From Faecalibacterium sp. I4-3-84 (GTDB lineage Bacteria > Bacillota > Clostridia > Oscillospirales > Ruminococcaceae), in the NCBI RefSeq assembly GCF_023347255.1, contig NZ_CP094466.1:372001-436000 (forward strand): a DNA stretch of 64,000 bases. The letters are read 5' to 3'. Below the pieces are notes generated by a model, which was not told the origin of the DNA, ran no database searches, and was given only the letters and a program-made list of their open reading frames with translations. Below, piece after piece: positions 4,051 to 31,629 of this stretch (its first letter is position 1; each line of letters opens with the position of its first letter). The translations under genes were made by a program, and so were the position numbers.

Positions 4051-4086
4051 CCCCCGCAAAAATTTGCGAAGCAAAGTTTTGTGGGG
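4051..4086. repeat. hairpin repeat between tRNA-Phe and tRNA-Asp
   Basis: Inverted repeat: CCCCCGCAAAAATTTGC and GCAAAGTTTTGTGGGG around a GAA loop. It lies in the long spacer of the tRNA operon and would fold in the precursor RNA. Confidence 0.6.
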
Positions 4087-4104
4087 AAGAGGAGGAATTT
4101 CAGA

Positions 4105-4145
4105 GTTTGTTACGGCGGTCTTACTTGTAAGACTGCCAGACAAAC
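4105..4145. repeat. second long hairpin in tRNA spacer
   Basis: GTTTGT...GGC...GTCTTAC pairs with GTAAGAC...GCC...ACAAAC. No T-run follows, so it is more likely a processing or stability hairpin than a terminator. Confidence 0.6.
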
Positions 4146-4164
4146 GACTGACATTCCGACGAAG

Positions 4165-4238
4165 CGACCCGGATCGGGCTCGAACCGACGACCCCCAGCG
4201 TGACAGGCTGGTGCTCTAACCAACTGAGCTACCGGGCC
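4165..4238 (-). tRNA. tRNA-Asp(GTC)
   Basis: 74-base cloverleaf. Acceptor GGCCCGG pairs with CCGGGTC, and G73 is as expected for Asp. The anticodon loop CTGTCAC gives GTC. Unlike its neighbours it does not encode CCA (CTT follows the discriminator). Confidence 0.93.
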
Positions 4239-4241
4239 AAA

Positions 4242-4317
4242 TGGTGGAAGTTAACGGGCTCGAACCGCTGACCCTCTGCTTGTAAGGCAGATGCTCTCCC
4301 AGCTGAGCTAAACTTCC
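4242..4317 (-). tRNA. tRNA-Val(TAC)
   Basis: 76-base cloverleaf with encoded CCA. Acceptor GGAAGTT pairs with AACTTCC, and the anticodon loop CTTACAA gives TAC. Confidence 0.95.
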
Positions 4318-4323
4318 ACAAAA

Positions 4324-4399
4324 TGGAGCGGCCGACGAGGCTCGAACTCGCTACCTCCACCTTGGCAAGGTGGCGCTCTACCAGATGAGCTACGGCCGC
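4324..4399 (-). tRNA. tRNA-Gly(GCC), copy 2
   Basis: Same sequence as the copy at 3819-3894, with encoded CCA and anticodon GCC. First gene of the operon, 46 bases from the promoter -10. Confidence 0.95.
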
Positions 4400-8984: not shown

Positions 8985-9491
8985 ATGTTGAACGAGACCG
9001 AAGCCGCCGCGAGCTTTCACGGCCTGTGCCATTTTTTCGGACGGCTGAGCAAGGCATCCCGGGCCGGCATGAAGGCGGCTCTGCGGGGCTGTCCCAAGTG
9101 CCACTTTCCCATGCTGGAGGGTCTGGCTCACACGATCAGTACCCATGGGCAGAACGGAGCGGTGTATGTTTCCGATTTTGCCCGGGAGGCACACCAGCCG
9201 CTGCCAGCCATCAGTCGCAGCCTGCGCCAGCTGGAACAGGACGGCCTTGTTCTGCGCGAAGCGGACCCGGCTGACCGGCGCAAAACGCTGGTGCGCATCA
9301 CGCCGGAGGGCTACGCCGCCTGTGCCCGGTGTGAAGATGCCCTCAGCGATTATTTTGCCTGCGTGATGGCCCGGCTGACACCGGAGCAGGTGCAGCAGAT
9401 GAATACTTTGCGCGGCGCACTGATGGATGCCATCCTTGCGGAAAACGCTTCCCGTGAAGCAAAAAACAACGAAGGGAGAACCGAACTATGA
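8985..9491 (+). CDS. MarR-family transcriptional regulator
   Basis: Winged-helix dimeric repressor of 168 residues. The core is SDFAREAHQPLPAISRSLRQLEQDGLV (helix-turn-helix, about residues 63-89) followed by the wing READPADRRKTLVRITPEG, both standard for MarR. Start ATG at 8985 is chosen because GAGGAGGG ends 6 bases upstream; the ATG at 8970 has no ribosome site. It overlaps the first exporter gene by 4 bases, so all three genes form one operon. It probably represses the operon through the palindrome at 8946. Confidence 0.88.
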   Translation: MLNETEAAASFHGLCHFFGRLSKASRAGMKAALRGCPKCHFPMLEGLAHTISTHGQNGAVYVSDFAREAHQPLPAISRSLRQLEQDGLVLREADPADRRKTLVRITPEGYAACARCEDALSDYFACVMARLTPEQVQQMNTLRGALMDAILAENASREAKNNEGRTEL

Positions 9492-11794
9492 CGAAAATTT
9501 TCAAGCAGCTGGCCCGGCACTGGGCCGTCTGTCTTGTGGTGTTCGCGCTGCTGTTCGTGCAGGCGTACTGCGATCTTTCGCTGCCGGACTACACCAGCAG
9601 GATCGTGGACACCGGCATCCAGCAGGGCGGCATTGAAAGCCCCCTGCCGGAAACGATACGCCAGAGCACGCTGGATGCCCTCACGCTTTTGATGAGCGAA
9701 GAGGACGCTGATGCGCTCCAGAACGCCTACGGGTATTATCTTCAGGACGACGGCGTGCTGAAGCTGCGCACCGACCTGACCGATGACGAGCGCACCGCGC
9801 TGGAGGATGCCGTCACCACGCCGGACATCGTGCTGTATATGGCCGCCGCGCAGGCAGCGAGCGCCCCCGCCGGGCAGGACACCATGGGCATGACCGGCCT
9901 TGCTGACATGCAGGCGGCATCCTCTGAGAGCACCACCACGGATAGCGAGACCGTCACCCCCACTGCCGAAGATCTGGACACCGTATGCGCCCAGTTTGCC
10001 GCTATGAGCCAGATGCCCGGCTTCACCCGCGAAGCTGTCCAACAGCAGCTGGCCGGTGCTTTTGCCAGTCTGGATGATACCCTGATGGAGAACCTCAAAA
10101 GCCAGTCCATGCTGCTGGTGCAGCTGGAATACGAGGCACAGGGCATTGCCCACGATGTGCAGATGCGCTACCTTTACCGCGTAGGCGGCCAGATGCTGGG
10201 CCTGACTTTGCTGATGGTGGCTGTGTCCATTGCGGTGGGCTTCCTCGCCTCCCGTGTGTCCGCCGCCATTGGCCGCGACCTGCGCCGTGAGACCTTTGCC
10301 AGCGTCATCGGGTTCTCCAATGCAGAGATTGAGAATTTTTCCACCGCATCTCTCATCACCCGCACCACCAACGACATCCAGCAGGTGCAGTTCGTCTGCG
10401 TCATGCTGCTGCGCATGGTGGCCTATGCGCCCATTCTGGGCATTGGCGGCGTGCTGCATGTGCTGAACAGCAGCACCGGCCTTTCCTGGATCATCGTGCT
10501 GGATGTGGCCGTTCTGCTGCTGCTCATCCTCTTCCTGATGAGTGTGGCCATGCCCAAGTTCAAGATCATGCAGAAGCTGGTGGACCGGTTGAACCTCGTC
10601 AGCCGCGAGATTCTGACCGGCATCATGCCGGTGCGTGCCTTCAGCCGTGAAAAGTTTGAGGAGGAGCGCTTCGACAAGGCCAACAAAGACCTGATGAGCA
10701 CCCAGCTGTTCACCAACCATGCCATGGTTGCCATGATGCCCTTTATGACCCTCATCATGAACGGCACCAGCCTGCTGATCGTCTGGTTCGGCGGCAAGGC
10801 CATGGACAACGGCACCATGCAGGTGGGCGAGATGATTGCATTCATCACCTACACCATGCAGATCGTCATGTCCTTCCTGATGCTGGCCATGGTGGCCGTC
10901 ATGCTGCCCCGCGCCGGTGTGGCTGCGGAGCGCATCGACGAGGTGATCCGCACCAAAGCCACCATCAACGACCCGGACGAAGCTGCTGCAAAGCCCGCGC
11001 AGGAGCACGAAAACTGGCAGGGTGAGGTAGAGTTCCACGATGTGAGCTTCCGCTTCCCGGGTGCGGACAGCGATGCGCTGGAGCACATCAGCTTTACCGC
11101 AAAGCCCGGCGAGACCACCGCCATCATCGGCTCTACCGGCTGCGGCAAATCCACCCTGCTCGACCTCATCCCCCGCTTTTATGATGTCACCGGCGGCAGC
11201 GTGACCGTGGACGGCATCGATGTGCGCAATATGCCGCAGGCACAGCTGCACGACCTGCTGGGCTATGTACCCCAGAAGGGCGTGCTGTTCAGCGGCACCA
11301 TCGACTCGAACCTGAAGTTCGGCGGGGAGCACATCACCGATGCCGATGTGAAAAAGGCCGCTGCCATTGCGCAGGCCACCGAGTTCATCGACGCAAAACC
11401 GCAGGGCTACCAAAGCCCCATTGCACAGGGCGGCTCCAATGTGTCCGGCGGCCAGAAGCAGCGCCTTTCCATTGCACGCGCCATTGCCAAGGACCCCAAA
11501 ATTTATCTGTTCGACGACAGCTTTTCTGCCCTCGACTTTAAGACCGATGTTGCCCTGCGCCGTGCACTGAAAGCCCAGACCGATAACGCTACCGTTATCA
11601 TTGTGGCACAGCGCATCTCCACTGTGCTGCACGCAAACCAGATCCTGGTGCTGGACGAAGGCCGCCTGGTGGGCAAGGGCACCCATGCCCAGCTGATGGC
11701 TTCCTGCCCGGAGTATCAGGAGATCGCCCGCAGCCAGCTGAGCCAGAAGGAGCTGGACCTCAAATCTCTGAATACCGAAAAGGAGGGTGAGTGA
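9488..11794 (+). CDS. ABC exporter half-transporter 1
   Basis: Fused membrane and ATPase subunit, 768 residues, longer than the usual 580 because about 170 residues are inserted after the first helix (residues about 45-220), likely an extracytoplasmic domain. ATPase: Walker A IIGSTGCGKSTLL, signature VSGGQKQRLSIARAI, Walker B IYLFDDSFSALD. Asp replaces the catalytic Glu, which is typical of the degenerate site in heterodimeric exporters. Its partner is the next gene. Pairs of this type behind a MarR repressor usually export drugs or peptides (family knowledge). ATG overlaps the marR stop. Confidence 0.87.
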   Translation: MTKIFKQLARHWAVCLVVFALLFVQAYCDLSLPDYTSRIVDTGIQQGGIESPLPETIRQSTLDALTLLMSEEDADALQNAYGYYLQDDGVLKLRTDLTDDERTALEDAVTTPDIVLYMAAAQAASAPAGQDTMGMTGLADMQAASSESTTTDSETVTPTAEDLDTVCAQFAAMSQMPGFTREAVQQQLAGAFASLDDTLMENLKSQSMLLVQLEYEAQGIAHDVQMRYLYRVGGQMLGLTLLMVAVSIAVGFLASRVSAAIGRDLRRETFASVIGFSNAEIENFSTASLITRTTNDIQQVQFVCVMLLRMVAYAPILGIGGVLHVLNSSTGLSWIIVLDVAVLLLLILFLMSVAMPKFKIMQKLVDRLNLVSREILTGIMPVRAFSREKFEEERFDKANKDLMSTQLFTNHAMVAMMPFMTLIMNGTSLLIVWFGGKAMDNGTMQVGEMIAFITYTMQIVMSFLMLAMVAVMLPRAGVAAERIDEVIRTKATINDPDEAAAKPAQEHENWQGEVEFHDVSFRFPGADSDALEHISFTAKPGETTAIIGSTGCGKSTLLDLIPRFYDVTGGSVTVDGIDVRNMPQAQLHDLLGYVPQKGVLFSGTIDSNLKFGGEHITDADVKKAAAIAQATEFIDAKPQGYQSPIAQGGSNVSGGQKQRLSIARAIAKDPKIYLFDDSFSALDFKTDVALRRALKAQTDNATVIIVAQRISTVLHANQILVLDEGRLVGKGTHAQLMASCPEYQEIARSQLSQKELDLKSLNTEKEGE

Positions 11795-19886: not shown

Positions 19887-20004
19887 ATGTTCAGTCAATA
19901 AAACATTCCTGCGTAAGCCGCCTGCTGTGCACCGGGTCGTTTGGCGCAGTGCCCATCCGTTATACAACGAACTGCTGTGTTATAGTTTCAGGAGGGAACC
20001 GATC

Positions 20005-20757
20005 ATGGATGCCAACCGTTATTTTGATGCCATGCACAACGCTATGTCAGCTCAGCACCCCGGTGCGCAGCTGCTGTTAACGGTAAAGCTGCAGGACACC
20101 TGCGGCAACGATGCCTGCCTGGAGCTGAAGCAGCTGCCCGGTGAGAGCACCTCCATTCTGTGCTACTCCACCATGGGTCGCCGCTGCCTGAACTTCCAGC
20201 TGTTCCGCAAGGGCTGGCAGCTGTGCCACAACGCCGATGGCCAGCTGGTGGGCCGCTTTCCTTCCAGCGCCGACGGTCTGATCGACGAGACCGATTTCCG
20301 CGCCTACTGCCGTGAGGACAGGCTGGATATGGCCCGCACCCAGCGCATCACCGCCGAGCTTCGCCAGTGCGCCGGTATCAATTATCAGGGCAGCATCCCG
20401 CAGAACGCCCGCACCGGCGCTGTGATCACGGTAGAAAGCCATGTAGGGGCCGGTGCCCGCTGGACCTACTGGAGTCAGGATGTTCTGCCCAGCCTGCCGC
20501 TGGGTGCCATCCTCTACTGGCTGGCGGATCATCTGGCCGGTGCCGAGCGCCGCACCCTGCAGGCCGACCTGCAGGCAGCCCGCCTTGCCGCCCAGTGGCT
20601 GGCCGGTGATACAGCCGTATTCTTCCATCCGTCGGTGCCGATGACCGCCATGAATACGGTCTCTTCCGGCTCTGCACCCGCACGCCGCCGCACCACTGTG
20701 CCCGCTGCCCGCAACAAGAGCTGGCAAAGCATCATGGCCGTGATGGCAGGCATGTGA
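20005..20757 (+). CDS. unrecognised 250-residue protein
   Basis: I do not recognise this protein. It has no signal peptide or membrane segment. The first 170 residues look like a compact alpha/beta protein (MDANRYFDAMHNAMSAQHPG at the start, a CGNDACLELKQLPG segment near 32). The last 50 residues are low-complexity and basic (ARRRTTVPAARNKSW). ATG at 20005 has GGAGGG 9 bases upstream, a clear promoter is at 19858, and a terminator follows, so it is a real single-gene unit. Codon use matches the core genes, so it is probably native and not acquired. Confidence 0.7.
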   Translation: MDANRYFDAMHNAMSAQHPGAQLLLTVKLQDTCGNDACLELKQLPGESTSILCYSTMGRRCLNFQLFRKGWQLCHNADGQLVGRFPSSADGLIDETDFRAYCREDRLDMARTQRITAELRQCAGINYQGSIPQNARTGAVITVESHVGAGARWTYWSQDVLPSLPLGAILYWLADHLAGAERRTLQADLQAARLAAQWLAGDTAVFFHPSVPMTAMNTVSSGSAPARRRTTVPAARNKSWQSIMAVMAGM

Positions 20758-20760
20758 ACG

Positions 20761-20800
20761 AAAAAGCAAGGAAAGACCGATCGTCTCTCCTTGCTTTTTC
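20761..20800. terminator. bidirectional terminator
   Basis: AAAAAGCAAGGA pairs perfectly with TCCTTGCTTTTT. Serves both convergent genes. Confidence 0.85.
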
Positions 20801-20804
20801 AGTA

Positions 20805-22088
20805 TTATTCGAGGTACGGGTCCAGCAGGGCATCCACCGTTTTGTTCCGCTTGGGGTTCGGCTTTTTGATCACATGGCCGCGGCAGACCACCAGTTCCAG
20901 ATGCTGCAGCGCACGCAGGTCTTCCAGCGGGTTGTGCTTTGTCACAATAAAATCTGCGCTCTTGCCCGGCTCAATGGAACCGGTCACGTCTCCTACTCCG
21001 GCCAGCTGAGCATTGCGCAGGGTGGCCGTGTACAGGGCGAACTGGTTGCTCACACCGCAATACTTATGGAAATAGCACAGCTCCCGCCAGAAATCGTACT
21101 GGGTGATGTAGGGGCAGCCCACGTCATTGCCCAAGCCCACCGGAATGCCGTTGGCAAGGGCGGTCTTTGCGCTTTCCACCACACCGTCAAACACGATCTT
21201 GCCGTTATACTGGTCCTTTTCCGATGCACCGGAAACCGTTGTATCGAACAGCGCATAGGGCAGTGCCGGGGAGATGGTCGTGCACAGGAAGGCTCCCCGC
21301 TCCTTGTAAAGCCGGATGGTCTCATCGTCCATCTTTGCTCCGTGCTCAATGGAATCCACGCCGTTTTCCAGTGCCACCTTTACGCCCTCTGGCGACTCGG
21401 TGTGTGCCGCCACGGTATAGCCCAGCTTGTGGGCCTCGTCGCAGACGGCTTTGACCATTTCCGGCTTCATCTTCAGCTCGCCGGGGGTTCCCTTTTCGGT
21501 GGCATCCAGCACGCCGCCGGTGATCATCAGCTTGACAAGATCCACCTTCTGTCCGCTGGCCTTTTTGAGCTGAGCAAGTGCTTCGGCATTGCTATGGGCC
21601 GCAACTGCCACCGAGCCTGCCATATGTCCCCCGGGCACCGAAATGCCTTCGTTGGCGGCAAGAATGCGCGGTGCCAGCAGCTTGCCAGCTGCAGCATCAT
21701 CACGGCAGCGGGTGTCAAAATCTGCAATGCCGCCCACGGTGCGGATGGTAGTCACGCCACCCAGCAGTTCCAGCTTCGCGTAGCTGCATACCAGCCTGTA
21801 GGCCACCGCACGGGTCAGGCCATTGCTCAGAATTTTGCGCACCAGCGCGGCATTGTCCCGCGGCTTTGCGCTGGGCTTTCCGTTGCCTGCCAGATGCACA
21901 TGCAGGTTGATCAGGCCCGGGCACAGATAGCCTCCGTGCAGATCGATCACCTCACAACCGTCCAGATCCACGCCCTCATCGACAATGGCAATGATCTTAT
22001 CATCCTCGGTCAGCAGGATCTTGTGCTCTACCGGCTGCATCTGCTCGGTGCCATCCAGCAGGATCCCGTTCGTATAGGCACGCTTCAT
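20805..22088 (-). CDS. metal-dependent amidohydrolase
   Basis: TIM-barrel hydrolase of 427 residues. Metal-ligand motifs of the amidohydrolase superfamily are visible: LINLHVHLAGNG (HxH), AAHTESPEGVKVALENG and SIEHGAKMDD (further His ligands), and GLGNDVGCPY (the C-terminal Asp). The N-terminal DLHGGYLCPGLINLH is typical of imidazolonepropionase/prolidase-like members. The substrate could be a cyclic amide or a dipeptide; I cannot decide. ATG at 22088 with GAGAGG 9 bases upstream is preferred to the upstream in-frame ATG at 22097. Own promoter at 22141. Confidence 0.82.
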   Translation of the reverse strand: MKRAYTNGILLDGTEQMQPVEHKILLTEDDKIIAIVDEGVDLDGCEVIDLHGGYLCPGLINLHVHLAGNGKPSAKPRDNAALVRKILSNGLTRAVAYRLVCSYAKLELLGGVTTIRTVGGIADFDTRCRDDAAAGKLLAPRILAANEGISVPGGHMAGSVAVAAHSNAEALAQLKKASGQKVDLVKLMITGGVLDATEKGTPGELKMKPEMVKAVCDEAHKLGYTVAAHTESPEGVKVALENGVDSIEHGAKMDDETIRLYKERGAFLCTTISPALPYALFDTTVSGASEKDQYNGKIVFDGVVESAKTALANGIPVGLGNDVGCPYITQYDFWRELCYFHKYCGVSNQFALYTATLRNAQLAGVGDVTGSIEPGKSADFIVTKHNPLEDLRALQHLELVVCRGHVIKKPNPKRNKTVDALLDPYLE

Positions 22089-22140
22089 TGGGAACATCCT
22101 CTCTTTTTCAAGTTTTTTCGGACAGGAGTTGTTTTGTTCC

Positions 22141-22169
22141 AGTATAGCACGTTCCGGCAGATGGTGCAA
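22141..22169 (-). promoter_or_regulatory. promoter of amidohydrolase gene
   Basis: -35 TTGCAC, 17-base spacer, -10 TATACT with extended TGC. Confidence 0.75.
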
Positions 22170-22173
22170 TGCA

Positions 22174-22210
22174 AAAACGGGCAGGAAAGGTTCAGCACTC
22201 TCCTGCCCGC
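22174..22210 (-). terminator. terminator of amino-acid ABC importer operon
   Basis: On the minus strand GGGCAGGA pairs with TCCTGCCC, then GTTTTT. It ends directly before the -35 of the amidohydrolase promoter. Confidence 0.8.
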
Positions 22211-22224
22211 TCGATGTTATTTAT

Positions 22225-23187
22225 TTACTGTGCGGCTGCGCTGGAAGCTGCTTCGGAAGCAGCAGCCTCAGAAGCTGCTGCCTCGCTGGCAGCGGTCTCG
22301 CCGCCCTCGACCACCAGCTCGTCCTCGAAGTCGGTGCCGTAGGTATCCACCAGAGTCTCCTCATAGTCCTTGTGGAAGAAGTTCTCCTCGCCCAGAGTCT
22401 TGATCTCCTCGTTCAGCCAATCTAGAACGGTGGTGTTGCCCTGGCTCACAGCGGGAGCAATGGTGTCCTGACTGCCCAGAGAGGGAATGCCGACCGTGTA
22501 GCCGGTGTTCTGCTTTGCAAATGCAATGACCTCGGTGTTATCGTTGGCCCATGCCACGCCGTTGCCGTTCTCCAGTGCATTCTTGGCCGTTGCATAGGAA
22601 TCGTACTTCTGCAGCGGAATATTGGGGTACTCCTTGGTCAGGTAGGTCTCAGCAGTGGTGCCGGAAATGACGATCATCTGATCGTCAGCGTTCCAGTTGT
22701 CCAGAGTGGTGATAACGTTGCTGTCCGGAGAAATGACGCCCAGTGCAACGTTCATGTACGGCAGAGCGAAATCCACTTCCTCTGCGCGCTCGGGGGTCAC
22801 GGTGAAGTTTGCCAAGATCACATCCACCTTGCCGGTCTGCAGATACTCGATACGGTTGGCAGCCTCGGTAGAAACAAAGTTGATCTCTACGCCCAGATCC
22901 TCGCCCAGACGGCGGGCAAAGTAGACATCATAGCCCTGATACTCGCCGTTCTCATCCACGTAGCCGAACGGGTTCTTGTCGGAGAAGACACCGATGTTGA
23001 TGGTGCCGGACTCCTTGATCTGATCCAGCGTGCGGTAGACCACGCTGCTGCCGGATGCTGCGCTGCCAGATGCTGCAGTTGCGGTGGAAGCAGAAGAAGA
23101 GCCGCCGCATGCGGTCAGAACGGCAGCAGCGGATGCTGCGCCCAGACCCAGCAGGAAGGAACGACGAGAAATTTTAGACCGTTTCAT
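22225..23187 (-). CDS. amino-acid ABC importer, substrate-binding lipoprotein
   Basis: Family 3 solute-binding protein of 320 residues. N-terminus MKRSKISRRSFLLGLG has a twin-arginine-like start and then lipobox LTAC. The mature protein has the family blocks INIGVFSDKNPFGYVDENGEYQGYDV and LPYMNVALGVISPDSNV. The last 25 residues are a repetitive Ala-Ser-Glu tail (ASEAA repeats), which is unusual. It feeds the two permeases encoded upstream. Last gene of the operon; a CTGCGG/CCGCAG hairpin at 23222-23238 in the gap before it may raise its mRNA level. The leader peptide predicts a cysteine or cystine ligand (inference). Confidence 0.85.
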   Translation of the reverse strand: MKRSKISRRSFLLGLGAASAAAVLTACGGSSSASTATAASGSAASGSSVVYRTLDQIKESGTINIGVFSDKNPFGYVDENGEYQGYDVYFARRLGEDLGVEINFVSTEAANRIEYLQTGKVDVILANFTVTPERAEEVDFALPYMNVALGVISPDSNVITTLDNWNADDQMIVISGTTAETYLTKEYPNIPLQKYDSYATAKNALENGNGVAWANDNTEVIAFAKQNTGYTVGIPSLGSQDTIAPAVSQGNTTVLDWLNEEIKTLGEENFFHKDYEETLVDTYGTDFEDELVVEGGETAASEAAASEAAASEAASSAAAQ

Positions 23188-23258
23188 AATGGATTCTCCT
23201 TTACAAAATCTTTCCCATTGGCTGCGGAACCCCCGCAGTCTTTATCTTGATCTGTGAC

Positions 23259-24008
23259 TCATTTCACAGCATCAAACGTGAAGGTGCGCAGGAAGCGCTG
23301 CGCGCGCTCGGTCTTGGGCCGGTCAAAGAACTCGGCCGGTGCAGCTTCTTCCACGATCTTGCCGCCATCCAGAAAGATGACGCGGTTGGCAATGGCGCGG
23401 GCAAACTGCATTTCGTGGGTGACGATGATCATGGTCTTGCCCTGCTTGGCAAGGTCCAGCATAACGTCCAGCACCTCGCGCACCATTTCCGGATCAAGGG
23501 CAGCGGTCACTTCATCAAACAGAAGGATCTCCGGGTGCATACACAGTGCGCGCACGATGGCAACGCGCTGCTTCTGTCCGCCGGAAAGCTCACGCGGGTA
23601 GCTGTTTTTCTTGGCAAGCAGTCCCACGCGGTCCAGCAGAGCTTCGGCCTCCTGCTGCACTTCCGCTTTGGGGCGCTTCTGCACCTTGGTGGGTGCCAGA
23701 AGCACATTGTCCAGCACCGTCATGTGCGGGAACAGCTCGTAGCTCTGGAACACCATGCCGATGCGCTGGCGCAGCTGGGTCAGATTTTTACCGCCGTAGG
23801 CAACGGTCTCATTGCCCAGCCGCACCCGGCCGCTCTGGGTGGGCTCCAGGCCGTTCAGGCAGCGCAGCAGCGTGCTTTTGCCGCAGCCCGAAGGGCCGAC
23901 TACCACGATGACCTCACCGGGCTTGACAGCAAAGCTGATATCATCCAGCACGGGGGTCTCGCCATAGGCCTTGATCAGATGTTCAACAGTCAAAATAGGT
24001 TCTGCCAT
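23259..24008 (-). CDS. amino-acid ABC importer, ATPase
   Basis: ATP-binding subunit of the polar amino-acid uptake family, 249 residues. Walker A VVGPSGCGKSTLLRCLNGLE, signature LSGGQKQRVAIVRAL, Walker B EILLFDEVTAALDPEMV, and switch His in TMIIVTHEMQFA. All active-site residues are intact. It lies 6 bases downstream of the second permease gene in the same operon. Closest well-known relatives are GlnQ and TcyC-like ATPases. Confidence 0.9.
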   Translation of the reverse strand: MAEPILTVEHLIKAYGETPVLDDISFAVKPGEVIVVVGPSGCGKSTLLRCLNGLEPTQSGRVRLGNETVAYGGKNLTQLRQRIGMVFQSYELFPHMTVLDNVLLAPTKVQKRPKAEVQQEAEALLDRVGLLAKKNSYPRELSGGQKQRVAIVRALCMHPEILLFDEVTAALDPEMVREVLDVMLDLAKQGKTMIIVTHEMQFARAIANRVIFLDGGKIVEEAAPAEFFDRPKTERAQRFLRTFTFDAVK

Positions 24009-24014
24009 GTACGG

Positions 24015-24689
24015 TCACTTCCATTTCTTTTCGAGATAGGATGCCAGCAGACTGATAGGCCAGCATACGAAGAAATATAACACGAAAACCGTGAGATAAA
24101 TGCCAAACGCTGCGTTGGGGCTGGCGGTGCGGTTGGCCTCGATGATCTGCTGTGCTACCTTGATCACTTCCACAACACCGATCATCAGCACAAGGCTGGT
24201 GGTCTTGATCATGCGGGTAATCAGGTTGATGGACAGCGGGATCAGGCGGCGCACCGTCTGCGGAATGATGATGTACCAATAAGTCTGCGCCCGGCTCATG
24301 CCAAGGGCCTCGGCACTCTCATACTGGTGCTTCGGAATGGCGATCAGCGCACCGCGCACAAGGTCGCTCATTTCTGCGGTGCCCCACAGCACAAACACGA
24401 TGATGGATGCCATCTCGCCGGAAAGGTTCCACCCAAAGGCACGGGTGGTGCCGAAGTAAACGAGGAACAGCAGCACCATCTGCGGCATGATGCGGACGAA
24501 CTCCAGATAAAGCCGCAGAACCGCCTTGATAACGGGGTTGCGGGAGGTCATGAGCACGCCCAGCAGGATGCCCAGCGGCAGGCTGATGATCACCGAGACG
24601 GCACTGATCTTGAGTGCAACGCCAAGGCCGCCCAGCAGGCGGGCCATGTTTTTGCCCTTGAACAGGACATCAAGACCCAAATCCAGCAT
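24015..24689 (-). CDS. amino-acid ABC importer, permease 2
   Basis: Membrane subunit of 224 residues of the HisM/GlnP family, with about five helices and the coupling loop EALGMSRAQTYWYIIIPQTVRRLIP (the EAA motif). ATG at 24689 overlaps the end of the first permease by 20 bases, showing translational coupling. Works as a heterodimer with permease 1. Confidence 0.88.
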   Translation of the reverse strand: MLDLGLDVLFKGKNMARLLGGLGVALKISAVSVIISLPLGILLGVLMTSRNPVIKAVLRLYLEFVRIMPQMVLLFLVYFGTTRAFGWNLSGEMASIIVFVLWGTAEMSDLVRGALIAIPKHQYESAEALGMSRAQTYWYIIIPQTVRRLIPLSINLITRMIKTTSLVLMIGVVEVIKVAQQIIEANRTASPNAAFGIYLTVFVLYFFVCWPISLLASYLEKKWK

Positions 24690-25329
24690 AGCGCAGCCTC
24701 CTTTCGATCAGGCTGCCCACAATGGACACCGGCAGCAGAATGATAAGGTAGAACACCACCAGCAGGAACAGACATTCGATGGTCTTGGAATACATGCCGA
24801 TGAGATCCTTGGCCGTGAACATCAGGTCCATCAGGCTGATGGCGCTGAACACGCTGGTCTCCTTGAGCAGGAAGATCACATTTGCCATGAAAGCCGGCAT
24901 ACTGGTGGACATGGCCTGCGGCAGAATGATGTAGCGCATGGTCTGCCAGCGATCCATGCCAAGGCTGTAGGCGCTTTCCGTCTGAATCGGCTCAATGGCT
25001 TCCAGACCGCTGCGGAACGCTTCGGCCATGTAGCTGCCGCCCAGAAACGCCAGACCGGCAATGCCGCAGATCTCGGCATTGGTGCGGATGCCCACCTTGG
25101 GCAGGCCATAATAAATGAAGAACAGCTGCACCAGCAGCGGTGTGTTGCGGGACAGCTGGATGTAGACACCCACGATCTGCCGCAGAACGGGCACCTTGTC
25201 ATACTGGATCACTGCGCAGGCAAGGCCAATGATGATGGCAAAAATGATGCCTGCAACGCCCAGCCGCACGGTAAGTACAGCGGCTTTCTGGTAGAGCGGC
25301 AAATATTGCTGGATCGCATTCCAGTCCAT
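24670..25329 (-). CDS. amino-acid ABC importer, permease 1
   Basis: Membrane subunit of 219 residues of the HisM/GlnP family. Its EAA loop is AYSLGMDRWQTMRYIILPQAM, and SRNTPLLVQLFFIYYGLP is a family signature. ATG at 25329 with GGGAGGA 9 bases upstream. First structural gene of the operon, located 36 bases after the attenuator terminator, so its expression depends on read-through of that terminator. Confidence 0.88.
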   Translation of the reverse strand: MDWNAIQQYLPLYQKAAVLTVRLGVAGIIFAIIIGLACAVIQYDKVPVLRQIVGVYIQLSRNTPLLVQLFFIYYGLPKVGIRTNAEICGIAGLAFLGGSYMAEAFRSGLEAIEPIQTESAYSLGMDRWQTMRYIILPQAMSTSMPAFMANVIFLLKETSVFSAISLMDLMFTAKDLIGMYSKTIECLFLLVVFYLIILLPVSIVGSLIERRLRYAGFGS

Positions 25330-25365
25330 TGCCGGATTCCTCCCTTGTATCCTGATTTGCGGGTC

Positions 25366-25411
25366 AAAACAAAACGCCCGGAAGCTCCCTCTTCAAGTAA
25401 GCTCCCAGGCG
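25366..25411 (-). terminator. attenuator terminator of the ABC importer operon
   Basis: On the minus strand CGCCTGGGAGCTT pairs with GAGCTTCCGGGCG (13 pairs, 3-4 of them G-T), followed by TTTTGTTTT. It lies between the Cys-rich leader ORF and permease 1. A segment within the leader ORF, GCTTCCCGG (25494-25502), can pair with the left arm (CCTGGGAGC, 8 of 9) and would act as antiterminator. Confidence 0.82.
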
Positions 25412-25461
25412 ATCAGCGACAGATCCTTCTGCGTGTTCCCACACAGAATATGCAGATATGC

Positions 25462-25542
25462 TCACACGGCATACCATACTGCAGGGCGGCCGGTCCGGGA
25501 AGCGTTTGCGGTACAACAACACATTGCGCAACAACACATCAT
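25462..25542 (-). CDS. Cys-rich leader peptide (transcription attenuation)
   Basis: Short ORF of 26 codons starting MMCCCAMCCCTANAS: two runs of three consecutive Cys codons within the first ten positions. The ATG at 25542 has GGGAGG 8 bases upstream, so it is set up for translation, and it starts about 50 bases after the promoter. Downstream are a possible antiterminator segment and an intrinsic terminator. Established logic of amino-acid leader peptides: when charged tRNA-Cys is scarce the ribosome stalls on the Cys run, the left terminator arm is captured, and the importer is transcribed. This is the strongest evidence that the importer takes up cysteine or cystine. Confidence 0.8.
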   Translation of the reverse strand: MMCCCAMCCCTANASRTGRPAVWYAV

Positions 25543-25598
25543 AGCCGTTTCCTCCCTGAATGATCTCAATTTTCAGATTTGCTCGACCCGATGCACGT

Positions 25599-25627
25599 AG
25601 TTTACACCCCATTACCCATTATGTCAA
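25599..25627 (-). promoter_or_regulatory. promoter of leader peptide / ABC importer operon
   Basis: Consensus -35 TTGACA, 17-base spacer, -10 TAAACT. Strong, as expected for an operon controlled by attenuation rather than initiation. Confidence 0.8.
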
Positions 25628-25737
25628 TATGATTATGGGGCTTCTTTCGATTCTTTGCTCATTCAGCCTAAAAACATCTCATTCTATGTGCAAATTTTAT
25701 TCATTTTTCAACTTGACCGTATGCGTCGTGCGGACAG

Positions 25738-25764
25738 CAAAAAGCCCTCCCGTCGGGGGAGGGC
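25738..25764 (-). terminator. terminator of efflux/SLH operon
   Basis: GCCCTCCC pairs with GGGAGGGC on the minus strand, then TTTTTG. Confidence 0.8.
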
Positions 25765-25774
25765 CGGGCCGGAT

Positions 25775-27886
25775 TCAGTTTTTCCTGACCGCGATCAGCA
25801 CGCGGATCTTGCTGCCTGCTGCGCGGCCGTCGTTATCAAACCAGCCAATGAGGGTGTAGTCCTCGCCGTTCACCTGCGAAAGGGTGGTGGGATAGTAGGT
25901 GCCCTTATACCACAGATACACCTGCATATCGTCGGCAGTCTCGTACTTCTTGCCGCCGCTCATCACCGAGGCCGCGCCCACCTTGTCGATCACGGCAGGC
26001 ATCAGCTGCCGCATGGACTTGACCTTGCCGGAAGTGCTGATGCCCACAGCAATGCCGCCCGCCAGCACCGGGTACTTGGTGCTGGTCTTGTAGGTCGTCT
26101 GCTTGCCGTTCACGTAGCACACGTAATCTGCACCGCTTCCCAGATAGTTGAGCACAGTGCTCAGACCGCCGCTGGTGTTAGCTGCGCCCAACTTGAGCAG
26201 ATAGCTTGCCAGCTTGTCGGTGCTGCCGGTCACGCTTTCCCACACACTGCTGCCGATGCTTCCGTCCACAAGGCCCCACAAAAGGTCGCCGATGCTGGGC
26301 AGCACGATCTCGGCCACATCGCCTGCGATGGAAGCTGCATCGGTGCTGGAAGAGGTGCTTGTGGTGGTACCGGTCGTCGTGCCGGTGGATGTGGTGCTGC
26401 TGGAAGAGGTGACATTGTTGATGAGGTTTTTCACGTCGTCCAGCACGCCGTAAGTCCACAGATCACCCGTGACATCGTTCAGGATCAGTCGATCGATCTG
26501 ACCGTTCTCATTGGTGGTATAGTAGCGCACATCGGCATCCGAAAGTGTTACCCCCGATAGGCGGCTGGGACTTACCGTCCCAGCCACACCCTCCGAAGTC
26601 GTATCCAGAATTTCCACGCCGTCCGCAAGGGCTGTTTCGCCCAGAGCGGTACCGTCTGCATTGATCGTACCGGAAGTGCCCTTTTTACCAATGGCATCCA
26701 CCTGCTCGCCGTCGGCGTTCACGGTGATTTTCACCATCCAGCCGGCCGGGTAGTTCAGGTCCTTGGCCACGCTCACTGTGCGGGTGATGCCGTCGGTGCA
26801 CTTCACTTCCACCTTCTGCTGCACGTCCGCGCCGTTTTCTTCCACAAGGCTGCGGGTGGCCGTTTGCACTACGCCGTAGAACACTTCGTCTGCGGCATCA
26901 CCGGTCAGCACGGCAACGGCTTCGTTGTTCATGCCCAGCAGCAGGGTGACTACCTGACCCACGCCGCCGCCGTTCAGGCTGGACAGCTGGGCTGCTGCCG
27001 AGGAGCTTGCAATGGTGTAGCTGGTGCCAGCCACGGTAACAGATGTGGGTGCGCTGGCGCTGGGCGACACCGCCGTGATGCGGCCTGCCGCCTTGCGGGT
27101 GTAGACCCACACGGTCTTTGCGCTGGCATTATAATAGTACACATCATAAGCGGACAGCTGGGCGTTGGTGCTCACGCTGTCGTTGCAGTAAACGGCCTCC
27201 GGCTCAAAGGGCAGGCTTTCGCCTTCCGATGCCACAAAGGGGCCTTCCAGATTGCTGAGCAGGATGGACGAAACATCCACCTGACCATTTGTCACCGTAA
27301 AGCCAAGGGTGGTACCGTACACACTGCCGCTGGCCGTGTTTGCGGTGAGGGCGTTGTACAGCAGGATGGCTCCGTCTTCCATGGTCATGGCCTGACCCTG
27401 GGTGCGGCTCAGATTTGCACGCAGTCCGATGGCGTTTGCCTTGTTCAGCTGTGCTGCGGGGAAGCCGCCGGTCAGGGTCGTCACATCATAGCCCAGCAGG
27501 GTCAGAGCGGCGGTGCAGGCTTCTTCCAGCGTCACGGTCTGATTCGGGCGGAAGGAGCCATCGGTATAGCCGCTCATCCAGCCCTGCTGCACTGCAATGC
27601 GGATATAGGGCGCATAAGCGCTGCTGCCGTTCACATCAGTATACAGAGTGCCGATGCTGCCCTGCGTATTGGCGTTATCGTGGTAGGCGGAAAAGGCCAC
27701 CAGCAGCTTTGCCAGCTGCCCACGGGTGAGCGGCGTGCTCAGCCCGGCAGCTTCCTCGGTGGAGAAAGCGCCCAGCGTTACCGCCGTCTGCACCGCCGTG
27801 TTGGAGCCAGCTGCCGATGCGGGCAGCACCAGCATGGACACGCCGATGCACACCGACAGCAGCAGTGCGAGGAATCGTTTTTTCAT
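25775..27886 (-). CDS. SLH-domain surface protein
   Basis: Secreted protein of 703 residues. Signal peptide MKKRFLALLLSVCIGVSMLV ends at ASA-A. S-layer-homology units follow at about residues 30-190 (TPLTRGQLAKLLVAF; YAPYIRIAVQQGWMSGYTDG; FRPNQTVTLEEACTAALTLL), which anchor proteins to wall polymers. The remainder up to residue 700 is not recognised; it includes a Ser/Thr-rich linker (SSSSTTSTGTTTGTTTSTSS, about 525-545). ATG at 27886 with AAGGAGG upstream, 10 bases after the permease gene. Being last in a MacAB-type efflux operon suggests a role at the cell surface linked to that pump. Confidence 0.8.
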   Translation of the reverse strand: MKKRFLALLLSVCIGVSMLVLPASAAGSNTAVQTAVTLGAFSTEEAAGLSTPLTRGQLAKLLVAFSAYHDNANTQGSIGTLYTDVNGSSAYAPYIRIAVQQGWMSGYTDGSFRPNQTVTLEEACTAALTLLGYDVTTLTGGFPAAQLNKANAIGLRANLSRTQGQAMTMEDGAILLYNALTANTASGSVYGTTLGFTVTNGQVDVSSILLSNLEGPFVASEGESLPFEPEAVYCNDSVSTNAQLSAYDVYYYNASAKTVWVYTRKAAGRITAVSPSASAPTSVTVAGTSYTIASSSAAAQLSSLNGGGVGQVVTLLLGMNNEAVAVLTGDAADEVFYGVVQTATRSLVEENGADVQQKVEVKCTDGITRTVSVAKDLNYPAGWMVKITVNADGEQVDAIGKKGTSGTINADGTALGETALADGVEILDTTSEGVAGTVSPSRLSGVTLSDADVRYYTTNENGQIDRLILNDVTGDLWTYGVLDDVKNLINNVTSSSSTTSTGTTTGTTTSTSSSTDAASIAGDVAEIVLPSIGDLLWGLVDGSIGSSVWESVTGSTDKLASYLLKLGAANTSGGLSTVLNYLGSGADYVCYVNGKQTTYKTSTKYPVLAGGIAVGISTSGKVKSMRQLMPAVIDKVGAASVMSGGKKYETADDMQVYLWYKGTYYPTTLSQVNGEDYTLIGWFDNDGRAAGSKIRVLIAVRKN

Positions 27887-27896
27887 AGTTGCCTCC

Positions 27897-29096
27897 TTAA
27901 TCGTAACGCAGCGCTTCGATGGGGTTGAGCCGTGCCGCGCGCTTTGCGGGCAGGTAGCCGAACAGCACGCCGATGCCCACCGAGATGCCAAAGGCCACGG
28001 CCACCGAGCTGAGAGACGGTGCCACGGTCATTTCCATATCGGACATGACCAGCGGCAGGATCTTGTTTGCCAGTGCCGAGAGCAGATAGCCCAGACCGAT
28101 GCCCAGTATGCCGCCCAGCGCCGAGGTGGTGGCAGCTTCGGTGACGAACAGGCCCAGAATGACCCGTTCCTTGGCACCCAGCGCCTTGCGAATGCCGATC
28201 TCGCGGGTGCGCTCGGTGACGGACACCATCATGATGTTCATGATGCCGATGCCGCCCACCAGCAGCGAGATGGCCGCAATGGCTGTGAGGATAGTGACGA
28301 CCATGTTCACCATGGAGGTCATCATATCCAGCATTTCGCTCATGCTGGTGACCATGTAGCCCTTATCGGAGCTGAGCAGCTCCTGCAGGCCGTTTTCCAG
28401 TGCGGTCTTCGCTTCGGAAATGTTGTCCTCACTGGTCACAGTGACGGCGTAGGAGCTGGCGGTGCTGGTTTGTGAAACACGCAGCGCCGTGGTGTAGGGC
28501 AGCAGAACGATATCATCGCTGCTGCCCTCCTGATCCGAGGTGTCTGTCACCTTGGCTTCCAGTACACCCACAATGGTATATTTCTCCGCTCCGATTTTGA
28601 TGGTCTGGCCCACGGCATTGCCGCCATAGGCCACACGGCTGATGTAATCGCCCACTACGCAGATCTTCTTGTTGTCAGTCAGATCCACGTAGTTGATGCC
28701 GCGCCCGACGCGGACGGTGCAGCCGCTCATTCCAAGATAGCTCTCGCTCACGCCCTTGACGCTGGTGTTGCTGTAGCTGGTGGTACCCACCTTCACGGTC
28801 CCGTTGATGCTGGCCGTAGGCGACACCGCCTCGAACAGGTCCGGGTGGGCATCCACGAGGCTGTAAACATCCTCCACTTTCACAGAGCGGGAACCGTAAC
28901 CCATGACCTGCACGCTGATGATGTTGGTGCCGAGATCTGAAAAGCTGGACTGGATGCTCTGGGTCATGCCGTTGCCAAGGCCCACGATAACGATGACCGC
29001 CGTCACGCCGATGATAATGCCCAGCATGGTGAGGAAGGTGCGGAACTTATTGCTCCAGATGTTCTGGATGGCTTCACGGAAGGTCTCATAGATCAT
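27897..29096 (-). CDS. MacB-like ABC permease
   Basis: Permease of 399 residues of the FtsX/MacB family: a first helix (FRTFLTMLGIIIGVTAVIVI), a large extracytoplasmic domain (about 45-270), then three helices with the conserved SVTERTREIGIRKALGAK loop near 300. Starts by a 4-base overlap with the ATPase gene. It acts mechanically with that ATPase and the adaptor to move substrates such as peptides outward. Confidence 0.9.
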   Translation of the reverse strand: MIYETFREAIQNIWSNKFRTFLTMLGIIIGVTAVIVIVGLGNGMTQSIQSSFSDLGTNIISVQVMGYGSRSVKVEDVYSLVDAHPDLFEAVSPTASINGTVKVGTTSYSNTSVKGVSESYLGMSGCTVRVGRGINYVDLTDNKKICVVGDYISRVAYGGNAVGQTIKIGAEKYTIVGVLEAKVTDTSDQEGSSDDIVLLPYTTALRVSQTSTASSYAVTVTSEDNISEAKTALENGLQELLSSDKGYMVTSMSEMLDMMTSMVNMVVTILTAIAAISLLVGGIGIMNIMMVSVTERTREIGIRKALGAKERVILGLFVTEAATTSALGGILGIGLGYLLSALANKILPLVMSDMEMTVAPSLSSVAVAFGISVGIGVLFGYLPAKRAARLNPIEALRYD

Positions 29097-29842
29097 GATG
29101 CACTCCCCTCCTGTTCTGCCTTGGGTGCATAATTGGGCTGCACCACGGCTTCGGGTGCGTGGGCATCGCCGTCGTACACCACATGGCCGTCCTCCAGCCG
29201 GATGATGCGCTGGGCCTGCACGGCAATGGAGTTGTCGTGGGTGATAAGCACCACGGTGTTGCCCTGCCGGTGCAGGTCCTGCAGCATGCCCAGCACTTCA
29301 CGGCCGGTGTGGCTGTCCAGTGCGCCGGTAGGCTCGTCGGCCAGAATGACAGCCGGACGGCCTGCCAGTGCCCGCGCGATGGAAACACGCTGCTGCTGAC
29401 CGCCGGAAAGCTGGTTGGGCTTGTTCCGGAGCTTATCGCCAAGGCCCACCCGCTCCAGTGCGGCGGCGGCACGGCGGCGGCGCTCCCCACGCGGCACTCC
29501 GGCATACACCAGCGGGACCCCCACGTTTTCGATCAGGCTGAGCTTGGGCAGCAGGTTGTACTGCTGAAAGATGAATCCCAGCAGCTCGTTGCGGATCTCG
29601 GCCAACTCGTCGCGGCTCATTCTGCCCACATCCCGGCCATTGAGTTTATAGGTGCCCGCCGTGGGCACATCCAGACAGCCGATGATGTTCATGCAGGTGG
29701 ATTTGCCGGAGCCGGACTGGCCCACGATGGCCACGAACTCGCCCTTGTTGATCTGCATCGAAATGTGATCTGCAGCCTTTACAAGGGTATCGCCCATCTG
29801 GTAATACTTGCACACATGATCAAATTCAATAAGGGCACTCAT
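29093..29842 (-). CDS. MacB-like ABC ATPase
   Basis: ATPase of 249 residues, LolD/MacB group. Walker A IVGQSGSGKSTCMNIIGCLD, signature LSGGQQQRVSIARAL, Walker B VILADEPTGALDSHTG, switch His TVVLITHDNS. ATG overlaps the stop of the adaptor gene by one base (TGATG). The C-terminal 25 residues are an extra tail. Confidence 0.92.
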   Translation of the reverse strand: MSALIEFDHVCKYYQMGDTLVKAADHISMQINKGEFVAIVGQSGSGKSTCMNIIGCLDVPTAGTYKLNGRDVGRMSRDELAEIRNELLGFIFQQYNLLPKLSLIENVGVPLVYAGVPRGERRRRAAAALERVGLGDKLRNKPNQLSGGQQQRVSIARALAGRPAVILADEPTGALDSHTGREVLGMLQDLHRQGNTVVLITHDNSIAVQAQRIIRLEDGHVVYDGDAHAPEAVVQPNYAPKAEQEGSAS

Positions 29843-31629
29843 CAGAAGCCACCTCCCGGGCCTCCGCCGCCGGGGCCTCCGTTCCCTCCGCCGTGCCCGC
29901 CGCTGCCGCTGGCGTTCTGTTTTTCAGCAGCGTCGGCATCGTAGGCGATGGTGCCGCCCGGGCCCACCATGAATTCCATGCTGTCGCTGGCGTTCTGCTT
30001 TTCAGCAGCATTGGCATCGTAGGCGATGGTGTCGCCCTCCTGCAGGCCGCCGGTCACTTCGATCGAATCGTTGTCGCTGGTGCCGGTGGTGATCTTTACG
30101 TACACATAGCCGTCCGGTGCGGTCATATCCTGCACGGCATTGGCAGCACTGGGCGAATCCTTGGTGACCAGCACATAATTGCCGCGCACCACGGAACCGT
30201 TGGGAACGGCAAGGGCGTTGGACGCACTGCTCACCTCGATCTCGGCCGTGGCGTTCATGCCGGGCAGCAGGTCGCCGGTGTCATCGATGCGGATGGTCAC
30301 CGGGTAGGTCGTGGTGCCGCCGGTGGTGGTTCCTGCAGCGGAAACACTGGTGACCACGCCGGTAAAGGTACGGTCAGAAATGGCATCTGCCGTAATGGTG
30401 ACGGTCTGACCCTCCTTGATGGAGAGGATTTCCAGTTCGTCCACATTCAGCGTCATTTCCAGATAGCTCAGGTCGTAGATGGTGCACAGCGTCTCGCTGG
30501 CTGTAGTATCGGTGCCCACAGTGTCACCAGCCTTGACATTCTTCTGGATCACGGTGCCGCTGATGGGCGAGGGAATGGTGTAGTTTTCCATCTGCTTTTG
30601 GGTATCGCTCATGGAAAGCTGCGCGTTGAGCAGGCTGTCGGCAGCGGACTGTACCTGCCTGCTCAGCTCGGTGCCGGAAAGCTGCACGATGGCCGTGTTG
30701 GCCTCAATGGCAGTGCCTTCCTTGACGCACACAGCAGCCACCGTGCCGCTGGTGGTGGCTGTGACGGTCTGCTGGTGCTGATAATCGAACCGGGCCGAAG
30801 CCAGCGCGCTGACACCGTTGATGGTGGCGGATGCGGCCTGTGCGGTGGTCAGGCTGCCATTATTCTTCACGGCAATGGTCACGGTGCGCACCAGCAGATT
30901 GCCGCTGCTGATGGTATCGGTGCCGGCCACGGCCTGCACCGTGCCGGAAAGGGTCTCAAAGGTACCGTTGAGTATGACCTCCGCAGCCTGACCCACGGCA
31001 AACCCCGAAGCATCCGCTGCCGGGAATTCCAGCGTGAGCAGCAGGCTGGAATCGTCCCGCACGGTGGCGATCTCCTGCCCGGCGGTCACGTAGTCACCGG
31101 CCTTGACTTTGATGGAAGCCACTGTGCCGCCAATGACGCTGCGGATGTACTGGGCATCGGCTGTATCGTCGTAGCTGCGCTGTGCCTGCTCCAGCGCAAG
31201 CTGGGCCTTTTCCACACTGGTGGCAACGTCTGAACTGTCGATGGTGTACAGCACGGTACCCTTCTCGATGGTATCGCCCACCTCAAAATCTGCGGTGAGC
31301 ACAGTGCCCTTCACCAGCGACTTGACCGTATAGGTGTTAGCTGCGGAAATGGTTCCGGAACCGCTGAAGGTGTTGGTGATGTCCCGCCGTTCCAGTGCGG
31401 CCTCCATGTACTGGGTGCTGGCCTGCACAGCCTTTTTGCTGTTTTTGGGCAGCAGCACCGCAGCGGCCACCGCCGCCACGCAGACCACCGCAGTGATCTT
31501 TTTCCAGTTGCGCTTCAAAAACTGTTTCGGGTCTTTTTTGCCCGGCTGCACCGCCGGGTTCTCAAAGTCCAGCAGTTCCTGCTGGGCATCCGGCTGCTGT
31601 GCCGGTTCGCTGTTTTTCTTTCGCAGCAT
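29842..31629 (-). CDS. HlyD/MacA-like efflux adaptor
   Basis: Membrane-anchored adaptor of 595 residues. One helix (KITAVVCVAAVAAAVLLP, about 43-60) is followed by a barrel-hairpin-lipoyl layout: ERRDITNTFSGSGTISAANT, a helical hairpin (VEKAQLALEQAQRSYDDTAD), and a lipoyl half GTVIQKNVKAGDTVG. It couples the ABC pair to the outside. The C-terminus is odd: TIAYDAxAAEKQNAS occurs twice, then comes a Gly-rich tail. ATG at 31629 with GGAGGGG upstream. First gene of the operon, controlled by the site at 31684-31738. Confidence 0.88.
   Translation of the reverse strand: MLRKKNSEPAQQPDAQQELLDFENPAVQPGKKDPKQFLKRNWKKITAVVCVAAVAAAVLLPKNSKKAVQASTQYMEAALERRDITNTFSGSGTISAANTYTVKSLVKGTVLTADFEVGDTIEKGTVLYTIDSSDVATSVEKAQLALEQAQRSYDDTADAQYIRSVIGGTVASIKVKAGDYVTAGQEIATVRDDSSLLLTLEFPAADASGFAVGQAAEVILNGTFETLSGTVQAVAGTDTISSGNLLVRTVTIAVKNNGSLTTAQAASATINGVSALASARFDYQHQQTVTATTSGTVAAVCVKEGTAIEANTAIVQLSGTELSRQVQSAADSLLNAQLSMSDTQKQMENYTIPSPISGTVIQKNVKAGDTVGTDTTASETLCTIYDLSYLEMTLNVDELEILSIKEGQTVTITADAISDRTFTGVVTSVSAAGTTTGGTTTYPVTIRIDDTGDLLPGMNATAEIEVSSASNALAVPNGSVVRGNYVLVTKDSPSAANAVQDMTAPDGYVYVKITTGTSDNDSIEVTGGLQEGDTIAYDANAAEKQNASDSMEFMVGPGGTIAYDADAAEKQNASGSGGHGGGNGGPGGGGPGGGF

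Follow-up and report, generated by a model that had tools for sequence, protein, structure and literature searches.

What controls the importer operon that lies at 25329 to 22225 of the window, the 64,000-nucleotide stretch of Faecalibacterium sp. I4-3-84 DNA analysed here, and which substrate does it take up? Ahead of the operon is a short ORF whose peptide starts MMCCCAMCCC. From the sequence and its comparison with relatives, we consider it highly probable that this region is a ribosome-mediated transcription attenuator, which would sense a shortage of charged tRNA-Cys and control an L-cysteine importer.

The leader region and the importer operon

A preliminary description of the locus had listed a promoter, a ribosome site, a 26-codon ORF, a 13-pair terminator with a T-run and a complete importer operon. 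These elements are present on the minus strand in the order promoter, Shine-Dalgarno site, leader ORF and terminator (25627 to 25366), with the importer genes directly after the terminator:

25599-25627, minus strand: predicted sigma-70-type promoter, TTGACA at 25627-25622, 17-nt spacer and TAAACT ending at 25599 (10 of 12 consensus positions)
25551-25556, minus strand: Shine-Dalgarno site of the leader ORF, GGGAGG, from the sequence
25462-25542, minus strand: leader ORF MMCCCAMCCCTANASRTGRPAVWYAV followed by TGA; 26 codons, with six Cys codons in two runs of three
25495-25503, minus strand: region 2, the putative antiterminator strand, GCUUCCCGG, within the ORF and aligned with CUCCCGGGCA of relatives
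25401-25411, minus strand: region 3, CGCCUGGGAGC, terminator left arm and putative partner of region 2, from folding and the alignment of relatives
25366-25411, minus strand: intrinsic terminator, hairpin 25411-25375 followed by TTTTGTTTT
24670-25329, minus strand: importer permease 1 (HEQRo/BPD_transp_1 family), from family models
24015-24689, minus strand: importer permease 2 (HEQRo-type), from family models
23259-24008, minus strand: importer ATPase (GlnQ/TcyN-like), from family models
22225-23187, minus strand: solute-binding lipoprotein (family-3 binding protein), its nearest solved relatives being L-cysteine receptors
20805-22142, minus strand: amidohydrolase-family gene, nearest NCBIfam model Xaa-Pro dipeptidase, below its cut-off

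Promoter matches at 10 of 12 consensus positions are common by chance (0.7 per shuffle); TATTGACAT of the window promoter and its flanking sequence recur in the loci L003, L004, L005 and L008. The predicted -10 box ends 57 nt upstream of the leader start codon, an ATG at 25542. Paired cysteine runs of the pattern TGYTGYTGYN6TGYTGYTGY occur once in the window, with 0.00 expected, and a narrower pattern with TGT as the first codon occurs once in the 3.1 Mb genome. The terminator hairpin consists of 12 outer and 3 inner pairs (-24.1 kcal/mol), close to the number previously given; it was absent from the output of a terminator scan of the window, probably on account of an internal loop in the stem. 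Leader and terminator together are more stable than their own shuffles (z -3.7, 0 of 200 as low), and the terminator ends 36 nt before the permease ATG. Within the ORF, GCTTCCCGG at 25503-25495 could pair with CCTGGGAGC of the terminator left arm, with a bulge or mismatch. Upstream of the leader lies a gene for an SLH-domain protein (25743-27892, minus strand) with a terminator-like hairpin after it (25765-25743), and five tRNA genes (Gly, Phe, Asp, Val, Gly) are clustered at 3819-4399 of the window, also on the minus strand.

The substrate of the importer is left unnamed by family models: no NCBIfam equivalog at or above its cut-off was among the matches listed for the operon proteins (25 of 190 for the ATPase, 25 of 33 for the amidohydrolase). 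Judging from its spacing, the amidohydrolase gene would be a further member of the operon. The best sequence matches of the binding protein in the PDB are 1xt8 (E 7.6e-71) and 2yjp (7.9e-70), with the third far behind (4.1e-36). A predicted structure based on 32 sequences from the window and the loci (mean pLDDT 81.5) matches best to 2yjp, titled as solute receptors for L-cysteine from Neisseria gonorrhoeae (Z 34.2, rmsd 1.6, 243 residues, 49% identity), and then to 1xt8, a Campylobacter jejuni cysteine-binding protein (Z 34.1, rmsd 1.7, 243 residues, 47%); the next entry follows at Z 30.3 (rmsd 1.7, 237 residues, 25% identity). Sequence and predicted fold thus support a binding protein of the L-cysteine receptor type, with cysteine as the likely importer substrate, in agreement with the assignment that the preliminary description had made. 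The leader codon and the likely substrate thus agree, each on its own line of evidence.

Leaders and their target genes in related genomes

Among 31 genomes of the genus, the permease was found in seven (kept at E 1e-55 or better) and the leader in five of these, two of which are the same species: the window and L032, together with L003, L004 and L006. The L004 leader, MMCCCAMCCCSANASRTG, carries a G to A change in the terminator arm that preserves both pairings. L006, with a permease 61% identical to that of the window, has a diverged leader, MQYSIVRGMMCCRCMQ..., with MMCCRCM and a terminator hairpin of its own. In L005 and L008 the promoter is kept and the leader is absent; the L008 permease has an internal stop. 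No comparable Cys-run leader was seen by eye upstream of the paralogous importers L009-L031.

In a wider search, the permease was found in 18 of 396 family genomes at E 1e-50, and 80 permease loci on named contigs were kept from more than 575 relatives, mostly Clostridia. Their upstream regions contain ORFs led by a Shine-Dalgarno site, for example MHNVVVNRHDNMMCCRMLYSRAYDMAG... and MRNAIVNISKSMCCCSMRPSRAY.... Most of the first set of leaders came from a regular-expression search, whose pattern combined two Cys codons close together with a region 2 of CCGG type, a region 3 of CCGGGA type and a run of T; L033 and L006 were added by eye. Without L006, 24 leaders form alignment A1, which has the core TGYTGYCGAATG...CTCCCGGGCA...ATGGC and, ahead of the terminator, GCCAT.TGCCCGGGAG. 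The covariance model R1, built from A1, was matched by 15 of 396 family, 13 of 391 class and 5 of 378 phylum genomes (E 0.001 or better; the sets overlap, and the search filters lose weak matches). Applied to 100 loci, which were almost all permease loci and held 23 of the 24 leaders used for training, R1 matched 33; among these, the match in L058 lies downstream of the permease and that in L056 is cut by the contig end. R1 does not match L006, in which the pairing has another register. Named species with the element include Gemmiger formicilis, Hungatella hathewayi, [Clostridium] citroniae and Hominifimenecus microfluidus.

The preliminary description had taken homologous loci devoid of the leader features as evidence against its reading. 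Such loci exist in part, with L005 and L008 in the genus and, among the homologous permease loci outside it, L049, L051, L055 and others. As these have no leader and only 33 of the 100 loci match R1, the element and its control are patchily distributed among homologous loci.

The genes next to the leaders widen the picture. Of 65 leaders, 25 precede a cysteine importer (22 a permease, 2 a binding protein, and L138), 22 metY (O-acetylhomoserine/O-acetylserine sulfhydrylase), 6 metQ, 5 a cystathionine lyase/synthase gene, 3 a cysteine synthase gene (a fragment in L154), 1 metN and 1 metF, so that a sulfur amino-acid gene is next in 63; the remaining two precede a LanM-like gene (L058) and no recognised gene (the first leader of L090). 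Gene names were given by comparison with reference proteins; the metY, cysK and metF references pass an NCBIfam cut-off, and for metQ, metN and the cystathionine genes the name is taken from the best model, whose cut-off is not reached. For gene context, the loci fetched by permease are not independent and those found by the model are. The R1 genome searches returned 36 distinct places, three of them already tabled (the window, L033 and L035); all 33 new ones precede sulfur amino-acid genes, 28 are not copies of training sequences, and two are weak (L147, 62 bits with a truncated permease, and the L154 fragment). The strongest single case is MANNCCKNLCCCRMLVYRICCVIRCSSRLCYA, with nine Cys, ahead of cysK in L076 (TIGR01139 460 bits, cut-off 351). 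The role in importer control that had been proposed for the element is supported, and the element occurs more widely than proposed, extending to metY, cysK, cystathionine, metQ/metN and metF-type genes.

In L138 the start of the permease runs into ATPase sequence; a script had labelled it metN, and we read it as an importer with an internal deletion. The importer operon of L147 looks broken, with the permease start alone recognisable, and in L154 (1299-1876) what lies behind the leader is just the C-terminal fragment of a cysteine synthase gene, apparently the remains of a decayed cysK. L090 contains two leader copies (1734-1881 and 3575-3722), of which the second alone stands directly before metY. 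In L058 the match at 9246-9386 (E 3e-8) has the leader MKTVTVNLCMNMCMCRMLFSQAMKSFRCMADLSCTI and is followed by a gene for a LanM-like lanthipeptide synthetase (9411-10652), the only recognised target outside sulfur amino-acid metabolism.

All 61 distinct leaders among the 65 contain at least two Cys. Cysteine makes up 12% of their 2115 residues (start Met excluded) and 0.63% of 19270 downstream residues, the latter taken from first ORFs that were chosen by script and are partly in the wrong frame; the leader value and the counts of Cys runs given below are inflated, because the regular expression, R1 and the ORF-picking script, which scored the Cys count besides the Shine-Dalgarno site, all favour Cys. 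Adjacent Cys codons are found in 49 of the 61, and CC or CxC in 51. As ten leaders have neither, the Cys-run rule is strong and not absolute. The conserved Cys runs for which the preliminary description had called are hence present at homologous loci, as are compensatory changes in the alternative pairings (see below).

Another reading would be a functional Cys-rich peptide, metal-binding or RiPP-like, with the conserved RNA being incidental. Clusters of cysteines can bind metals or undergo modification, and one leader does precede a LanM-like gene. The peptides differ widely, however, in length and in the residues that lie outside the Cys core and the segment that pairs in the RNA, the pairing segment covaries with the terminator arm, and sulfur amino-acid genes follow nearly all leaders, which makes this explanation very improbable.

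Equally improbable is that the ORF arose by chance over a metabolite riboswitch or a T-box. Firmicute sulfur genes are often under SAM riboswitches or T-boxes according to the available parts of two papers (PMC3766115, PMC2494555), and of the 15 T-box matches in the host genome, 8 exceed the family cut-off. Yet a search of 20000-31000 with Rfam at E up to 1 gave three sub-threshold matches, none within the leader, and Rfam 15 had no match at E up to 0.1 in nine loci holding other leaders, so that a T-box (RF00230) or another Rfam family was rejected for these leaders. Furthermore, Cys is preserved while its codons interchange (TGT 181, TGC 72).

A more substantial alternative concerns the codons that are read. 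The leaders share the core MCCRM, with Met at a fixed position in 50 of 60 (L155 was dropped here), and directly after the Cys codons the sequence is almost fixed as CGA ATG (among the 49 leaders with Arg at this position 45 use CGA, and 50 of 60 have the ATG). Met accounts for 8.7% of leader residues (start excluded) and 1.4% of downstream residues, and metQ-, metN-, metF- and metY-type genes are among the targets. In three leaders Met takes the place of one Cys: L162 (MCMRM, before metY), L163 (MCMFRM, metN-type) and L167 (MCMRM, metY-type); a shift towards Met sensing is possible for these. The leader may thus read both Cys and Met, and so sulfur amino acids as a class instead of cysteine alone, perhaps with some slowing at the near-fixed CGA, a reading that we hold to be rather doubtful and still worth serious consideration. 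Against it stand the adjacent Cys codons of most leaders and the nine Cys in both full-length cysK leaders. Moreover, the fixed ATG at +5 is explained by the pairing of the RNA, as AUGGC forms helix 2 of the antiterminator, and CGAAUG may have a structural role. The two codons lie, for example, at 2307-2302 of L036 (minus strand), and at the nucleotide level CGA ATG is kept even in several leaders with Cys replaced.

Antiterminator pairing and the proposed mechanism

The conserved pairing between regions 2 and 3 was evaluated in two sets of sequences. In the 24 sequences of A1, the 15-pair antiterminator helix is 90.0% paired, compared with 21-48% for slid versions of the structure, and has a covariation score of 0.161 (at most 0.121 slid), which was reached by 1 of 500 shuffles. 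For 34 sequences outside the training set, aligned independently of structure, the values are 86.4% (22-49% slid) and 0.243 (at most 0.139 slid), and none of 500 shuffles came as high on any of five measures; the regular expression and R1 favour sequences that keep the pairs, and the shuffles ignore kinship. Changes on both sides affect 6 of the 15 pairs in A1 and 10 of 15 in the 34 other sequences. Since slid structures come close in such counts (12 of 13 pair types in A1; 9 of 10 double-changed pairs and 29 of 30 types in the 34), these are weak evidence, and the argument for the antiterminator rests on the percentage paired and the covariation score. Individual compensatory changes include GGGCA/UGCCC to GGACA/UGUCC (L148, L155), GGAUA/UAUCC (L076) or GGGCG/CGCCC (L150), CCCGGG/CCCGGG to CCCAGG/CCUGGG (L163) and AUGGC/GCCAU to AUGAC/GUCAU (L126). 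A local hairpin across region 2, CCCGG:CYGGG, which is a candidate for the 1:2 (pause or anti-antiterminator) hairpin of an attenuator, keeps each of its pairs in 33 to 43 of 49 sequences. A long GUCGAAUGC:GCGUUCGAC stem spotted by eye in L036 is absent from the consensus of these 49 and is not claimed.

For the window itself, the duplex energy is at chance, with 583 of 1000 shuffles of the upstream segment as low; the corresponding numbers are 121 for L004, 150 for L006 and 171 for L076, and L036 alone stands out (9 of 1000). A proof of the antiterminator from the window sequence alone was therefore dropped. Because its own duplex is imperfect and at chance, the pairing in the window rests on homology. 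The pairing of the leader with the terminator left arm that the preliminary description had named is feasible with a bulge or mismatch and corresponds by alignment to a conserved family helix, and the window's own energy lends it no weight. An antiterminator that would be exclusive with the terminator is apparent at the level of the family, the window alone not being above chance.

Terminator-like hairpins of -7 kcal/mol or better follow 59 of the 61 distinct leaders. This argues against a control of translation initiation or of mRNA stability in which the terminator is no more than a leaky roadblock, as does the double use of region 3 as terminator arm and antiterminator partner. Such control would resemble that of mycobacterial polycysteine leaders, for which the available part of PMC9031893 describes a Cys-dependent effect on downstream translation; we regard it as unlikely here.

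The arrangement suggests the following mechanism of transcription attenuation, in which translation of the ORF, stalling, the choice between termination and read-through, the response to cysteine and the identity of the codons read are inferred. With plentiful cysteine, the ribosome would pass the Cys codons and cover region 2, region 3 would pair with region 4, and the resulting terminator would halt transcription ahead of the importer. A shortage of charged tRNA-Cys would make the ribosome stall at the Cys codons and leave region 2 free ahead of it; region 2 would then pair with region 3, block the terminator and allow transcription of the operon.

Folding was calculated for nascent transcripts that stop after region 3, a ribosome footprint of 28 nt being placed at each codon in turn. 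In the window, 0.2 pairs between regions 2 and 3 are expected without a ribosome and 0.0 with the ribosome at the stop codon, region 2 being held in another fold. The values rise to 8.0, 6.1 and 6.3 once the A-site is on the Cys codons 8, 9 and 10, respectively, and over codons 12-20 they are about 0. The first Cys run has a weak effect (1.8-4.0), and 5 to 8 pairs are also expected at codons 1-2 and 21-25. The predicted pattern, open on Cys codons 8-10 and shut at the stop codon, hence follows the logic of an attenuator. When region 4 is included, no ribosome position in the window keeps the terminator from winning at equilibrium; the contest between the two pairings would therefore be kinetic, with timing deciding.

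The models fit the window better than its relatives. On average over 52 relatives, 7.6 pairs are expected in nascent RNA without a ribosome, 7.3 with the ribosome at the stop codon, 8.3 as the mean over Cys codons and 8.9 at the best Cys codon. Many relatives have the 2:3 pairing dominant in nascent RNA even without a ribosome, so that a simple equilibrium switch is unsupported for the family as a whole. The cost of opening region 2 averages 7.7 kcal/mol without a ribosome or with one at the stop codon and 6.3 kcal/mol with the ribosome on Cys. Compared with no ribosome, it is at least 1 kcal/mol lower in 26 of the 52 and higher in 4, a modest effect whose p-values were set aside because the sequences are related.

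Relation to known leaders and biological meaning

Ribosome-mediated attenuation is classical, with transcription attenuators of the His/Trp type in Proteobacteria. The element shares with these a leader ORF with a run of codons for the amino acid to which the controlled genes relate, alternative antiterminator and terminator structures and structural genes directly downstream. The layout stated in the preliminary description, that of a His/Trp-type attenuator with Cys codons, is thus borne out, the antiterminator at family level. In contrast to the classical cases, the control codon is Cys, region 2 lies in the ORF past the control codons, and the hosts are Clostridia. According to the available text of a 2010 report on a His leader in bacilli, that leader was the authors' first known outside Proteobacteria and Actinobacteria, and reports of leader-peptide attenuators for amino acids are rare from Firmicutes, whose usual device for this purpose is the T-box (PMC2965389). 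T-boxes (RF00230) likewise act by antitermination ahead of Firmicute amino-acid genes, through uncharged tRNA; the leaders searched had no T-box match, and sensing would here be by the ribosome and not by tRNA binding.

Cys-run leaders are known from other phyla, as had been noted before. The parts available of the respective papers describe Cys runs in short ORFs upstream of sulfur genes in Actinobacteria (PMC1262725) and the mycobacterial polycysteine leaders mentioned above (Canestrari 2020, via PMC9031893; reference entry in PMC9094748). These share with the present leaders the position of their Cys runs, and as far as those parts describe them they are leaderless mRNAs that act on translation, or have no conserved terminators, whereas the Clostridial element combines an ORF led by a Shine-Dalgarno site, an intrinsic terminator and a conserved antiterminator. 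The window ORF, with its Shine-Dalgarno site and a predicted -10 box 57 nt upstream of the ATG, would not be leaderless as the ORF of the mycobacterial polycysteine attenuator is. In Rhodobacterales, the uORFC-8-2 motif before cysS has tandem Cys codons, a predicted terminator and predicted ribosome-mediated attenuation (PMC8632094, in part). Going by its description there, it is set apart from the present element by its phylum and by its target, cysS, compared with importer, metY, cysK, cystathionine, metQ, metN and metF-type genes here.

In the available text of a 2013 regulon survey, the attenuators covered are limited to those that Rfam then had, for His, Leu, Thr and Trp (PMC3766115), and a Cys leader was not found in the accessible portions of PMC2494555 and PMC6429828. 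In line with the preliminary description, no report of Cys leaders in Clostridia was among the matches listed in our literature search, with most subscription journals lying outside it. The family is therefore known in kind, as ribosome-mediated attenuation, and as a Clostridial Cys-leader family it appears to be new.

Tentatively, and with somewhat less than even confidence, we propose that Clostridia repeatedly use a so far undescribed RNA/ORF element, with the core MCCRM-x-x-SRA and the antiterminator CUCCCGGGCA...AUGGC : GCCAU...UGCCCGGGAG, which would couple the progress of the ribosome over Cys/Met codons to the genes for cysteine and methionine uptake and synthesis; leader peptides would then do the job that T-boxes and SAM riboswitches have in other Firmicutes. 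One conserved element would stand ahead of six kinds of sulfur amino-acid gene across Clostridia, and the leader may supply a substrate for importers not named by family models. It would define a testable sulfur regulon in gut-type bacteria and may offer a simple genetic cysteine sensor for anaerobes.
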